Origin: an uncultured Luminiphilus sp.
GTDB lineage: Bacteria; Pseudomonadota; Gammaproteobacteria; Pseudomonadales; Halieaceae
Length of the DNA: 64,000 bases
Reading direction: 5' to 3'
NCBI GenBank assembly: GCA_943787485.1
Contig: CALSMP010000006.1
Span: 62,001 to 126,000 of the forward strand
A program made the position numbers and the translations under genes. Positions 32,850-48,429 of the stretch are shown here, one piece after another; positions within the stretch are counted from its first letter, which is position 1, and each line of letters starts with the position of its first letter. The notes under the pieces were generated by a model. That model did not search any database. It had not been told where the DNA came from and saw nothing but the letters and a program-made list of their open reading frames with translations.

Positions 32850-33761
32850 CTAGCGGATCCTCGACAAAATGCCGTCTAGCTCCTCGTTGCTTGAGAAGGT
32901 AATAACCAGCTTGCCTCCTCCCCCGCGACGGGCTTGTAACGCCACTGCCGCACCCAGTCTCTCAGCAAGATCTCGCTCTAATCGCTGCACATCGGGATCT
33001 CGCCGGCCTTGGTCGTGTGATTTATTTTGATCGGGGTGAAGGATGGTCTTCACCAGCCGCTCTGTTTGCCGGACAGAAAACCCGGATTTCACCACTTTTT
33101 TAGCGGCTGCAACTTGTTGCCGCCCCTCAAGAGCAAGAAGCACCTTGCCGTGCCCGGGACCGATTACCCCCTGCTCAATCATTGTTCGAACGTCGGGTTC
33201 CAGTGACAAAAGTCGCATGGCGTTGGCAATGGCGGGCCTTGATTTGCCAACCCGCTCTGCCACCTGCTGCTGGCTGAGCTCAAACTCATGTTGCAGTCGC
33301 TTTAAGGCGACTGCCTCCTCAACCGGGTTTAAGTCTTTTCGCTGGATGTTTTCTATCAGCGCCATGGCAATCGCCGCATCGTCACCCACCTCTCGCACGA
33401 GGGCGGGAATTGTGTCGATGCCGGCTAACTGACTCGCCCGCCACCGCCTCTCACCGGCGATGATCTCCCAGACACCTCCCTCAACAGGCCTGACGATTAT
33501 AGGTTGCATCACACCTTGATGTTTAATGCTGTCCGCCAATTCCTGAAGAGATGCTGGGTCAAAGTCTCTTCTCGGCTGGTACTTGCCACGCCGCAATTTT
33601 TCGAGGGGTATCTGCCTTAGCCCCAATGCGGCCGCGGCGGGGAGTGATTCCATCTGGTCACTTGTGGTTGATGTCTCAGCTGGCGTCGACGTAATAGCGG
33701 TAGCGCTCAACAAGACGTCAAGGTCTTTGCCCAAACTTCCTCGTCGTTTTCGTGCGCTCAC
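32850..33761 (-). CDS. parB: Chromosome partitioning protein ParB
   Basis: RRGSLGKDLDVLL, PLEKLRRGKYQPRRDFD, ELADSIKHQGVMQPIIVRP, GERRWRASQLAG. Confidence 0.97.
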   Translation of the reverse strand: MSARKRRGSLGKDLDVLLSATAITSTPAETSTTSDQMESLPAAAALGLRQIPLEKLRRGKYQPRRDFDPASLQELADSIKHQGVMQPIIVRPVEGGVWEIIAGERRWRASQLAGIDTIPALVREVGDDAAIAMALIENIQRKDLNPVEEAVALKRLQHEFELSQQQVAERVGKSRPAIANAMRLLSLEPDVRTMIEQGVIGPGHGKVLLALEGRQQVAAAKKVVKSGFSVRQTERLVKTILHPDQNKSHDQGRRDPDVQRLERDLAERLGAAVALQARRGGGGKLVITFSSNEELDGILSRIR

Positions 33762-33812: not shown

Positions 33813-34598
33813 TTAGGCCGGACGTTGGATGCTTGTCCGGTCGCCCTGACGTTTCACGAACTCCCCCGCCAATGCCGCGTATGCTCTCGCTCCCGCACTG
33901 TAACGGTCGTAATGCAATGCCGGCAATCCATGACTGGGTGCCTCTGCCAGCCTGACATTCCGTGGAATCACTGTCCTGTAGACTTTATCACCGAAATGCT
34001 TATGAAGCTGCGCCGAGACCTCATTAGTCAATGAATTGCGGGGATCGTACATGGTGCGCAGTATGCCTTCTAACTCTAACCGCGGGTTTGCGGTCTCTTT
34101 CACCCTTTCTATCGTTGCCAGCAGTGCCGACAGCCCCTCTAGCGCGAAATACTCACACTGCATCGTAACAATCACCGAATGGGCGGCAATTAAGGCGTTG
34201 ACCGTGAGCATGCTCAATGAGGGGGGACAATCGATGAGAATGACATCGTACTGGAACCCCGTCGCCAAAGCGTTTGCAAGGCGGTGCTCTCGTTGCTCCA
34301 ACGCCAACAGCTCTACCTCTGCAGCCGTGAGATCTCGATTTGCCCCAACGAGTGAATAACCGTTGTCGGCTGCGGGCACGATAACCTCTTTAAGTGGCAT
34401 GGCATCGACCAATAAATCGTAGGCCGTGTACTCAAGGTTGTGTTTGTCCACTCCTGAGGACATCGTCGCATTTCCCTGCGGGTCAAGATCCACTAGCAGA
34501 ACCTCCCGCCCCATTGCAGCGAGACTGGCTGCCAGGTTAACGCTGGTGGTGGTTTTACCAACACCGCCCTTTTGGTTAGCTACAGCAACGATTTTCAT
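33813..34598 (-). CDS. parA: Chromosome partitioning ATPase ParA (Soj)
   Basis: [27 protein letters not shown] deviant Walker A. Confidence 0.97.
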   Translation of the reverse strand: MKIVAVANQKGGVGKTTTSVNLAASLAAMGREVLLVDLDPQGNATMSSGVDKHNLEYTAYDLLVDAMPLKEVIVPAADNGYSLVGANRDLTAAEVELLALEQREHRLANALATGFQYDVILIDCPPSLSMLTVNALIAAHSVIVTMQCEYFALEGLSALLATIERVKETANPRLELEGILRTMYDPRNSLTNEVSAQLHKHFGDKVYRTVIPRNVRLAEAPSHGLPALHYDRYSAGARAYAALAGEFVKRQGDRTSIQRPA

Positions 34599-41574: not shown

Positions 41575-41933
41575 GGTGACTACCTGTCATTCGTATGTGG
41601 GGCGCGGAGTTTAGGCTACTGGGCAGGGTGATTCAAGCGGTTGGTAATACTTGTGTCTGGCGCCCAGCCCCTTATCAGAGTGGTGTCCGGGGTAAGAGGG
41701 GTGGTGTTAAAAATCCAGTCACCGGTTGTGGGTTGTTCGTGGGGTTTGTTCCTGGTTCGTCACCCAGATCTTATACATTCAATCAAAATCCCAAAAAACC
41801 AGACGTTTTTATTTTTTGTTGGTCTTTACTATCAATTTGAGCCCTTAACCCACAGGGACTAGACCTAAAAACCGGACAAAAAAGCGCAACAAATAAACCA
41901 CTTAACGCCAACATATAAACAGGTTATCCACAG

Positions 41934-42043: not shown

Positions 42044-42052
42044 TGTGGATAA
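42044..42052 (-). promoter_or_regulatory. DnaA box TTATCCACA (reverse)
   Basis: Exact TGTGGATAA in ttttTGTGGATAActtac. Confidence 0.9.
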
Positions 42053-42202
42053 CTTACAACCCATGGCGCCGGAGTCGACGTTCCGGAACGAAAGTGACTG
42101 AACACCTATAATCGAACAAAAACGGTGTTTGAGAGTATTTCGGCCAAAGCCCTGTCGGTGGTGTGTAATGCCGTATGGGACTTGGTCATTTGGAGAGAGT
42201 TT

Positions 42203-43678
42203 GTGTCCTTAAGTCCTACCAATATCGATGTTTGGCAGCATTGCCTGTCCCGTTTGCGAGATGTGTTACCGCTCCAACAATTCAACACCTGGATCCGGCC
42301 GTTAAAGGCGAGTCATACCGAGGGTGGTGTCACGCTGGCGGCCCCTAATCGGTTTATCCGGGATTTTGTCGAGGACAAATACGGGGGACTCATCGCCGAG
42401 GTCGTTTCGGAAGCAACATCTCCGGGCGTTGCCTGCTGGTCCATCGTTGTTGGCGAGAAAGCGCCAACCCTGACGATGGGCCTGACAAGTAATTTGGAAC
42501 AGAGCTCAGAATCAAACGTACGTCCAATGGTGTCGGCGTTGCAGCCATCGTCATCGGCGAGCAGCGGAGGGGCGACGTTGCCCTCGGCTGGTGGCTTTGT
42601 ACCCAGTTCCCAGCCCCCTATTTCAATTCGGTCTGGTGCGGCAATCGCTCCTACCCATCAGCACAATCTGGTCGAAAGCTATACCTTTAGTTCTTTTGTT
42701 GAGGGTAAAAGCAATCAGCTTGCGCTTGCAGCGGCTCAACAAGTAGCCGAGAACCCCGGCGATTCTTATAACCCGCTGTTTTTATATGGCGGTGTGGGTC
42801 TGGGTAAAACCCATCTGATGCACGCCGTTGGAAATGCTTTGCGCAAGTCTAAGCCAGACGCGAGGATCGTTTACTTACACTCTGAGCGGTTTGTCGCGGA
42901 TATGGTTAAAGCATTGCAGCTAAATGCGATTAGTGATTTTAAGCGGTACTACCGCTCGGTGGATGCATTGTTGATTGATGACATTCAGTTTTTTGCCAAC
43001 AAAGATCGGTCCCAAGAAGAGTTTTTTCACACCTTCAATGCTCTCCTCGAGGGGGGCCAACAAATGATTCTGACCTGCGATCGATACCCCAAGGAGATCG
43101 AGGGCTTAGAGGAGCGACTGAAGTCTCGTTTTGGTTGGGGGCTGACGGTGGCTGTGGAGCCACCCGAGCTAGAGACCCGCGTGGCAATCCTGATGAAAAA
43201 AGCAGAACAAGCCAATATAGATCTGGCGCCAGACGCTGCGTTCTTTATAGCCCAGCGTATTCGTTCTAACGTGCGAGAGCTGGAGGGTGCATTAAAGCGG
43301 GTAATAGCCAGCGCAAACTTTACGGGCAGGCCGTTTGACATTGACCTTATTAAGGAGAGTTTGCGGGATCTGTTGGCTCTGCAGGACCGGCAGGTCAGTC
43401 TCGACAATATCAAGCGGACTGTCGCGGAGTATTACAAGATAAAATCCTCTGATCTTTTGTCTAAAAGACGCAGTCGATCGGTGGCCCGTCCGCGCCAAGT
43501 TGCCATGGCGCTGTCCAAGGAGTTAACCAACCACAGCCTCCCCGAAATAGGCGATGCTTTCGGCGGCAGAGATCACACGACAGTGTTGCACGCTTGTCGT
43601 AAAATCAAGGAGCTTCGCGAGACCAACACCGACATTCGTGAAGACTACAAAAATTTATTACGCTCGCTGACCACTTAA
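42203..43678 (+). CDS. dnaA: Chromosomal replication initiator DnaA
   Basis: GTG start [65 protein letters not shown]. Confidence 0.97.
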
Positions 43679-43730
43679 ACGTAGAATAATCGGCGGAGTT
43701 GTTTAACGTTTTTCTAGAACAGGGCAAACC

Positions 43731-44828
43731 ATGAAGTTCAGTATTTCGCGCGACGCATTATTAAAGCCGCTAAACCTTGTGGCGGGCGTGGTTGAGCGAC
43801 GACAAACGTTGCCAATTCTTTCCAATGTGCTGTTAAGCCTTGAGGGTAAAAAGCTCTCGCTCACTGGTACGGATCTTGAGGTGGAGCTGGTGGGCCGCGT
43901 TGAGCTGGATTCGGCCGGGGTAGACGGCGAGATTACGGTTCCCGCGCGCAAACTTGTTGATATCTGTAAATCACTGCCAGACGGGTCCACTATAGAACTT
44001 AATGTTGAGTCCGGTAAGGCAATGGTCAAAGCGGGTCGCAGCCGCTTTACCTTGTCGACTCTGGCAGCGACAGAATTCCCTTCTGTCGAAGAGGGGGTGG
44101 GTGAGCTGGCGCTGGATTTACCGCAAACCACGGTCAAACGGCTGATTGAACGAACCGCGTTTGCCATGGCGCAACAGGACGTCCGGTACTACCTTAACGG
44201 CATGTTGTTAGAGTTGAAGTCGGGCAGGCTACGTATGGTTGCCACCGATGGGCATCGGTTGGCGCTTTGCACGGCGCCAGAGCCCGTCAGCGCGGGAGAC
44301 GCTTCGGTGATTATTCCTCGGAAGGGGGTTCTCGAGCTGTCGCGTCTCTTGGAGGGGGAAGAGTCCATCTCCCTGGTTATTGGGAGCAACCATGTCAGGG
44401 CATCAAACCCGCAATTTACCTTCACTTCTAAGCTAGTTGACGGCAAGTTCCCCGAATATGAGCGCGTTTTACCCAAATCACCCGATAAAACTGTGATTGG
44501 CGATAGGCTTGAGCTCAAGCAGGCGTTTGCCCGAACAGCGATTCTTTCTAACGAAAAATATCGCGGTGTTCGTTTAAAGCTCAGTAATGACACGCTCGAC
44601 ATCATGGCCAACAACCCAGAACAAGAGCAGGCGGAGGAGGTTGTGGCTGTCGATTACAAAGGCGACAAGCTTGAGGTGGGTTTTAACGTGAGCTACCTTC
44701 TGGATGTCTTATCTGTTCTGGATGGAAAGCAGGTTCGAATGTCACTCGCAGACTCGTCGAGCAGCGCTCTTCTGGAGGAGGCAGAGGCAGGGGACTCCCT
44801 GTATGTTGTTATGCCAATGCGACTTTAA
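43731..44828 (+). CDS. dnaN: DNA polymerase III subunit beta (sliding clamp)
   Basis: MKFSISRDALLKPLNLVAGVVERRQTLPILSNVLL...YVVMPMRL. Confidence 0.98.
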   Translation: MKFSISRDALLKPLNLVAGVVERRQTLPILSNVLLSLEGKKLSLTGTDLEVELVGRVELDSAGVDGEITVPARKLVDICKSLPDGSTIELNVESGKAMVKAGRSRFTLSTLAATEFPSVEEGVGELALDLPQTTVKRLIERTAFAMAQQDVRYYLNGMLLELKSGRLRMVATDGHRLALCTAPEPVSAGDASVIIPRKGVLELSRLLEGEESISLVIGSNHVRASNPQFTFTSKLVDGKFPEYERVLPKSPDKTVIGDRLELKQAFARTAILSNEKYRGVRLKLSNDTLDIMANNPEQEQAEEVVAVDYKGDKLEVGFNVSYLLDVLSVLDGKQVRMSLADSSSSALLEEAEAGDSLYVVMPMRL

Positions 44829-44869
44829 GGGGCTTAAATCACGCTAGTCCGCGCCGCTTGGGAGGCTCA

Positions 44870-45955
44870 GTGCACCTAGAGCGCCTGTATATCGACCGGG
44901 TCCGTAATCTTACCGAGCAGCGTTTGACCTTGGGGCCAGGCGCAAACTTTGTTGTAGGTGGCAACGGCAGTGGCAAAACAACCATTTTAGAAGCAATTAG
45001 TTTACTAAGTACCGGCCGGTCGTTCCGAACTTCTACGGCGCGGCCGCTTATTCAACACACACAGCCAGCTTGCACAGTACAGGGCCGGCTTGTCGGTGAG
45101 GCCGTTCAAAAGGAGTTGGGTGTTCGAAGGCATCGTAGCGGTGAGGTGGAGCTTCGGGTGAATGGCATTAGCGTGGCTTCGCTGGTTGAGCTGGCCTCGG
45201 CGCTGCCTACCGTGCTAATCGACACCAGCGCCTCCGATCTTATCGTTGGGCAACCGGAGTTGAGAAGGCGGTATTTAGACTCCACCATGTTCCACGTGGA
45301 ACAGCGGTTTTTGGCGTGCTGGAGGCGCTATCATAAAGCCCTTCGCCAGCGAAACGCTGGGCTCCGTCGTGGTATGATCTCTGGGTATTCTGCCTGGTGC
45401 GCAGAGGTGGCTGGGTCGGGTGAGGTGTTGTCAGCATTGCGAGAGCCGGTGGCACAACAATTAAGTCAACGTTTTGCCCGTACTGCAACAACGTTAAGCC
45501 CCTCGCTGTCGGGCGTTGATTTGAGTTTTCGCCCTGGCTGGAGCCGCCCAGACACGCTTGAGCAAGTTCTCAGGGTGGGCTTGGACACGGATAGGTCGCA
45601 GGGGTATACCCGGGCTGGCCCTCACCGTGCCGACCTTCGAATGGTAGTTAATGGTCGGGCAGCTTCAGAGGTGTTATCTCGGGGCCAGCTTAAGTTGGCG
45701 GTTGTGGCGCTGAAGGCGGCCCAAGCTGAGGTGATGGTAGATATGGGGGTCTCGCCCCCCGTGTTTTTGGTGGATGATTTGGGGTCAGAGCTGGATGGGC
45801 CCCATGCGGCGGCGGTCTGTGGTCTTCTCGCCCAGACCGGATCCCAGGTGGTTTTAACTGCCGTGGCTGAACAGGAGTTACAGCAGTATTGGCGGGGTGG
45901 GGATCAGTGCTTGTTCCACGTGGAACAGGGTTGTGTTTCCCCAGCTCGTGGGTAA
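44870..45955 (+). CDS. recF: DNA replication and repair protein RecF
   Basis: VGGNGSGKTTILEAISLLSTGRSFR; GGAGG upstream of GTG start; dnaN-recF-gyrB order. Confidence 0.96.
   Translation: MHLERLYIDRVRNLTEQRLTLGPGANFVVGGNGSGKTTILEAISLLSTGRSFRTSTARPLIQHTQPACTVQGRLVGEAVQKELGVRRHRSGEVELRVNGISVASLVELASALPTVLIDTSASDLIVGQPELRRRYLDSTMFHVEQRFLACWRRYHKALRQRNAGLRRGMISGYSAWCAEVAGSGEVLSALREPVAQQLSQRFARTATTLSPSLSGVDLSFRPGWSRPDTLEQVLRVGLDTDRSQGYTRAGPHRADLRMVVNGRAASEVLSRGQLKLAVVALKAAQAEVMVDMGVSPPVFLVDDLGSELDGPHAAAVCGLLAQTGSQVVLTAVAEQELQQYWRGGDQCLFHVEQGCVSPARG
45288..45303. promoter_or_regulatory. parS site (ParB binding)
   Basis: Perfect 16-bp palindrome TGTTCCACGTGGAACA within recF. Confidence 0.93.
45912..45927. 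promoter_or_regulatory. parS site (ParB binding)
   Basis: Second identical TGTTCCACGTGGAACA near the recF 3' end. Confidence 0.93.
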
Positions 45956-45990
45956 CTCAAAGCAAATAATGGGTTATTGGCTGACAATAG

Positions 45991-48429
<2,439 letters not shown>

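Follow-up and report, generated by a model that had tools for sequence, protein, structure and literature searches.

The recF gene of an uncultured Luminiphilus sp. carries two identical 16-bp palindromes, which are almost certainly parS sites. We consider it about 93% probable that the 16-mers are parS, that their twin arrangement in recF is old, and that selection acting on the DNA fixes the codons together with the residues H, V, E/K, and Q/H of RecF at these places. In ParABS systems, ParB loads at parS, slides as a CTP clamp, and builds a partition complex; segregation of the origin region is carried out by ParA.

Two identical palindromes in recF near the replication origin

The window, i.e. 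the whole stretch of 64,000 nucleotides that was analysed, contains parB and parA, gidB, gidA, yidC, dnaA, dnaN, recF, and gyrB in this order, which is a standard origin region. The features discussed here are as follows.

32850..33761, minus strand: parB, predicted parS-binding CTPase with N-terminal, HTH, and C-terminal dimerisation domains
33813..34598, minus strand: parA, partition ATPase
41924..41932, plus strand: exact DnaA box, part of the presumed oriC
42044..42052, minus strand: exact DnaA box, part of the presumed oriC
42125..43678, plus strand: dnaA, origin-region marker
43731..44828, plus strand: dnaN
44858..45955, plus strand: recF, 365 codons, carrying both sites; Pfam SMC_N (RecF/RecN/SMC), E = 3e-24
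45288..45303, no strand assigned: parS site 1, TGTTCCACGTGGAACA, perfect 16-bp palindrome, M-F-H-V-E-Q as (A)TG TTC CAC GTG GAA CA(G)
45912..45927, no strand assigned: parS site 2, 16-mer identical to site 1, L-F-H-V-E-Q in frame
46000..48429, plus strand: gyrB

The recF product matched solved RecF structures (best E = 1.7e-31). The sequence-only reading had placed the exact 16-mer twice within recF, both times in the frame encoding FHVEQ, and both the coordinates and the frame were reproduced. Both 16-mers match the palindrome of chromosomal parS, TGTTYCACGTGRAACA, exactly. At up to three mismatches, TGTTCCACGTGGAACA had two matches in the window, both in recF, while 0.21 were expected from dinucleotide shuffles. 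Site 2 ends close to the end of recF, which follows 28 bp later, and the gyrB start codon lies 72 bp downstream of the site.

The dnaA-dnaN-recF-gyrB genes span 42125–48429, and both DnaA boxes are directly upstream of dnaA. This gene order and the boxes place the 16-mers about 3.2–4.0 kb from the presumed oriC, which bears out the proposal that the sites are origin-proximal. The distance to parAB, given earlier as 11–12 kb, was measured as 10.7–12.4 kb from site 1. The whole-genome scan that the sequence-only reading had suggested showed that the 16-mer is not scattered: no further copy of TGTTCCACGTGGAACA at up to two mismatches was found in the organism's own genome (2,674,828 bases in 23 contigs), and the whole detectable centromere thus lies inside recF. 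Since this genome is 89.68% complete, additional parS sites are possible in the missing part.

The cognate partition proteins and known parS sites

ParB and ParA are encoded near oriC on the same chromosome as both 16-mers. Aligned to Caulobacter ParB (6t1f), the window ParB has R/A/S/G at Caulobacter positions 173/179/184/201; the chain index was mapped to the published numbering with an offset of 10, by which all four published residues were recovered. R173 and G201 are absolutely conserved in ParB and altered in Noc, in which positions 179 and 184 are K and the full set is Q/K/K/R (PMC7383237). The window ParB therefore has the parS-type specificity residues, namely the equivalents of R173 and G201. 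Noc and its binding site (NBS) resemble this system in being a paralogous family that binds palindromes, but in the window the residues that set specificity, like the DNA site, are of the ParB/parS type. The 16-mers were accordingly rejected as an NBS, the window ParB lacking Q173, K179, K184, and R201.

The 16-mer TGTTCCACGTGGAACA is identical to parS2/parS3 of P. aeruginosa, the ParB targets of highest affinity (PMC4368675), and recF of that species contains parS1 and parS2 (PMC3909081, PMC5521831), with its recF parS sites being bound by ParB and functional (PMC4368675, PMC5098823, PMC5521831). Working in P. aeruginosa PAO1161, where parS3/4 act as back-up, Jecz et al. altered the sites within genes with the protein unchanged and found that any single one of parS1–4 is enough for segregation; Lagage et al. 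confirmed the requirement for parS1–4, including by ChIP-seq (PMC5098823). Because sequence, place, and partner agree, the 16-mers are assigned to a ParABS system, and by analogy we infer ParB loading and segregation at both of them in the window organism.

The closest likeness is to P. aeruginosa parS1/parS2, a two-site arrangement in recF near oriC, of which parS2 is identical to the window 16-mer and parS1 has one mismatch. However, beyond the recF pair, P. aeruginosa has parS3/parS4 elsewhere as well as weaker sites, whereas the window genome, 89.7% complete, has none outside recF at up to two mismatches. Spo0J-parS of B. subtilis and ParB-parS of Caulobacter share the three-domain ParB, ParA, and the origin-near 16-bp palindromic parS; unlike in those systems, all sites detected here lie in a fixed frame in the coding sequence of a single gene of the replication operon. 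The occurrence of parS in recF is already known from Pseudomonas and is not new in kind. A class-wide constraint of this type was not found in the literature searched, in which only the P. aeruginosa papers described such sites (the Livny 2007 survey and most subscription papers were outside the scope).

The twin sites are conserved in most sampled Gammaproteobacteria

Among 38 relatives, 31 had matches to the 16-mer at up to one mismatch, nearly always in two copies about 618–660 bases apart. One relative (G007) had a third match (L013, G007:C16), on the gyrB side and 5 bases short of the end of its contig; this is most likely recF site 2 again, repeated through an overlap in the assembly.

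For a broader comparison, we used 278 gammaproteobacterial recF genes, 20 from the genus and the remainder drawn evenly over order and class. The RecF proteins were aligned, the 16 bases at both positions were read, and a site was scored as parS if it had no more than two mismatches to TGTTYCACGTGRAACA. Both positions carried parS in 229 genes, one position in 31, and neither in 13, with five genes unscorable. Mismatches were sharply two-peaked, at either 0–2 or at least 4, with a single exception at 3. The two sites were 600 to 837 bases apart and in frame throughout, indicating that the distance between them is not fixed. Such a distribution, read from sequence, suggests that the twin recF pair is ancient. 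For both 16-mers, the conservation of position and sequence in relatives exceeded protein constraint.

The recF of a SAR86 MAG (L291) had the one-mismatch variants TGTTCTACGTGGAACA (encoding FYVEH) and TGTTCCACGTAGAACA (encoding FHVEH with GTA).

Codons at the sites are constrained at the DNA level

FHV[EK] was encoded at 484 sites, and the codons CAC-GTG-RAA were used at 471 of them, where the codon usage of these genes predicts 34. Of the 13 exceptions, 12 had CAT-GTG, and the sole GTA among the 484 sites was found in genome G309. The sequence-only reading had proposed comparing codons among recF orthologues, and no synonymous divergence was seen: in the 20 congeners, whose RecF proteins had a median identity of only 43%, the F-H-V-E codons were invariant in 8 of 8 cases, while none of the 68 other conserved columns was codon-invariant. 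As the other columns come from the same genes and the same tree, shared ancestry is controlled for in this comparison.

Independently of this, the silent choice of Phe codon also predicted the charged residue three codons on. TTC was paired with Glu and TTT with Lys, with odds ratios of 17 and 15 and in every GC3 stratum, as expected if the palindrome is to keep matching halves. On a tree built without the site columns, the coupling ran in the predicted direction in nearly all informative independent pairs. The supported pairs were few, however (informative pairs numbering about 4 and 5, with median p values of 0.125 and 0.0625 in sign tests), and we therefore count the coupling as supporting rather than decisive.

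Loss and relocation of parS

The tree shows at least 20 changes in the presence of parS at site 1 and at least 13 at site 2. Among the 35 genes lacking parS at site 1, 2 had V as the third residue, 6 had E/K as the fourth, and 24 had His; among the 22 genes lacking it at site 2, the corresponding counts were 7, 7, and 4. The comparison with parS-carrying genes is partly circular, since residue changes themselves score as mismatches. Phe was nearly always retained at both sites, and a hydrophobic third residue persisted at site 2. The earlier claim that the DNA site dictates the residues thus stood for most of them, as for V at site 1 and H at site 2, but did not extend to Phe at both sites, His at site 1, and the hydrophobic residue at site 2; these outlast parS, which suggests that the motif is partly favoured by the protein. 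The support that is not circular comes from how rarely FHVE occurs with drifted codons and from where parS lies in genomes that lack it in recF.

In genomes that had lost recF parS, sites were found elsewhere near the origin, kilobases away. For example, they were 13–19 kb from recF in genome G085 and formed a cluster 16–20 kb from recF in G142. Three genomes (G071, G126, and G150) retained one recF site and had the other about 2.6 kb downstream, and two (G104 and G153) had a second parS copy at the recF 5' end. Family f26 had lost both recF sites; its identification as Acinetobacter was rejected, with an Acinetobacter MAG (L290) clustering apart. Across families f26, f38, f6, and f13 and in G142, recurrent moves of parS over up to about 20 kb were observed, and either a single recF position or the pair had lost its site. 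In another family with ParB present (f183; L304, L307, L310, and L313), site 1 was lost and site 2 was TGTTYCATGTGGAACA, with a CATGTG core.

No intact CAC/CAT-GTG core was found at either recF position in the ParB-less lineages (G309, families f181 and f182, and E. coli). G309 is a 1.0-Mb genome in a single contig (paired with G192 as L254/L229; genus code g111) with TGTTCCATGCGGAACC and TGTTCCACGTAAAACG at its recF positions. It gave no match to the ParB HTH, and it has kept recF with both parS positions decaying; both ParB and parS are present in its congener G192. No chromosomal-type ParB was matched in f181, f182, or E. coli, and the E. coli recF positions read GCTTTCACAACGAACC and TGTTTACCGTGGAAAA. 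RecF of the f182 genomes is 80–82% identical to that of E. coli; the enteric-like genomes were taken from a draw over the phylum. In two ParB-less f182 genomes (L303 and L306), recF site 2 was TGTTCCGCGTGGAACA, one base off parS; this remnant indicates either that decay is incomplete or that RecF also constrains the segment.

Alternative explanations

FHVEQ could be a functional RecF motif under protein selection, with the identical DNA resulting from codon bias. What remains in RecF where parS is gone speaks for such an explanation: Phe at both sites, His at site 1, and, in third place at site 2, a hydrophobic residue. Yet protein selection does not account for one codon set at 471 of 484 sites (34 expected) when all 68 other conserved columns vary in codon within the genus, nor for residues that alter once parS leaves recF or a silent Phe codon that forecasts Glu or Lys, and we regard it as highly improbable. 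A chance 16-mer in a conserved gene would have only the FHVE-like protein background in its favour. The two exact matches, with none elsewhere at up to two mismatches, and the conservation at matching codon positions in most of the Gammaproteobacteria sampled refute it, leaving its probability practically negligible.

The palindromes could also be bound by a different regulator, such as one acting on the gyrB promoter, or by a Noc-like protein. Site 2 sits 72 bp 5' of the gyrB start codon, and in P. aeruginosa this operon is expressed less when ParB is in excess (PMC5521831). But site 1, which is 0.7 kb upstream of gyrB, is equally conserved, and the sites follow ParB and relocate rather than being tied to gyrB. 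The 16-mer is moreover a proven parS of P. aeruginosa, and at the equivalents of positions 173 and 201 the window ParB has R and G, common to all ParB and unlike Noc. This explanation is thus very unlikely, and parS function under DNA-level selection remains the preferred reading.

Proposed mechanism and implications

By analogy with characterized ParABS systems, ParB dimers would load at both recF parS sites, and the loaded ParB would close as a CTP-dependent clamp and slide onto adjacent DNA. ParB on the DNA would form a partition complex, which ParA would move and which may recruit SMC. The same stretch would serve as both RecF coding sequence and ParB-loading sequence, at two fixed codon positions in most sampled Gammaproteobacteria, and recF codons and residues would drift where parS is relocated or ParB is lost. 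The twin pair is probably the ancestral centromere of most Gammaproteobacteria, with ParB loading underlying the RecF motif FHV[E/K][Q/H], palindrome symmetry underlying the alternation of Glu and Lys, and RecF being freed wherever parS moved away or ParB was lost. As to why recF should be the carrier, we speculate that a syntenic gene of the replication operon would hold the centromere near oriC, and that RecF already tolerates Phe-containing segments at both places.

Within the literature searched (the 2007 parS survey being outside its scope), we found no earlier account of this twin pair across the class or of its mark on RecF residues. The pair and its mark offer a clean natural case of a DNA stretch that is both protein-coding and centromere across deep evolutionary time, with built-in controls in the relocated sites, the ParB-less lineages, and the silent codons that forecast a charged residue. 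They also call for caution, since strong conservation of a protein motif such as FHVE in RecF may stem from selection on the DNA. As a practical marker, gammaproteobacterial parS can usually be located at two defined recF codon positions, and whether a centromere in a syntenic replication gene stays pinned near oriC can now be tested.
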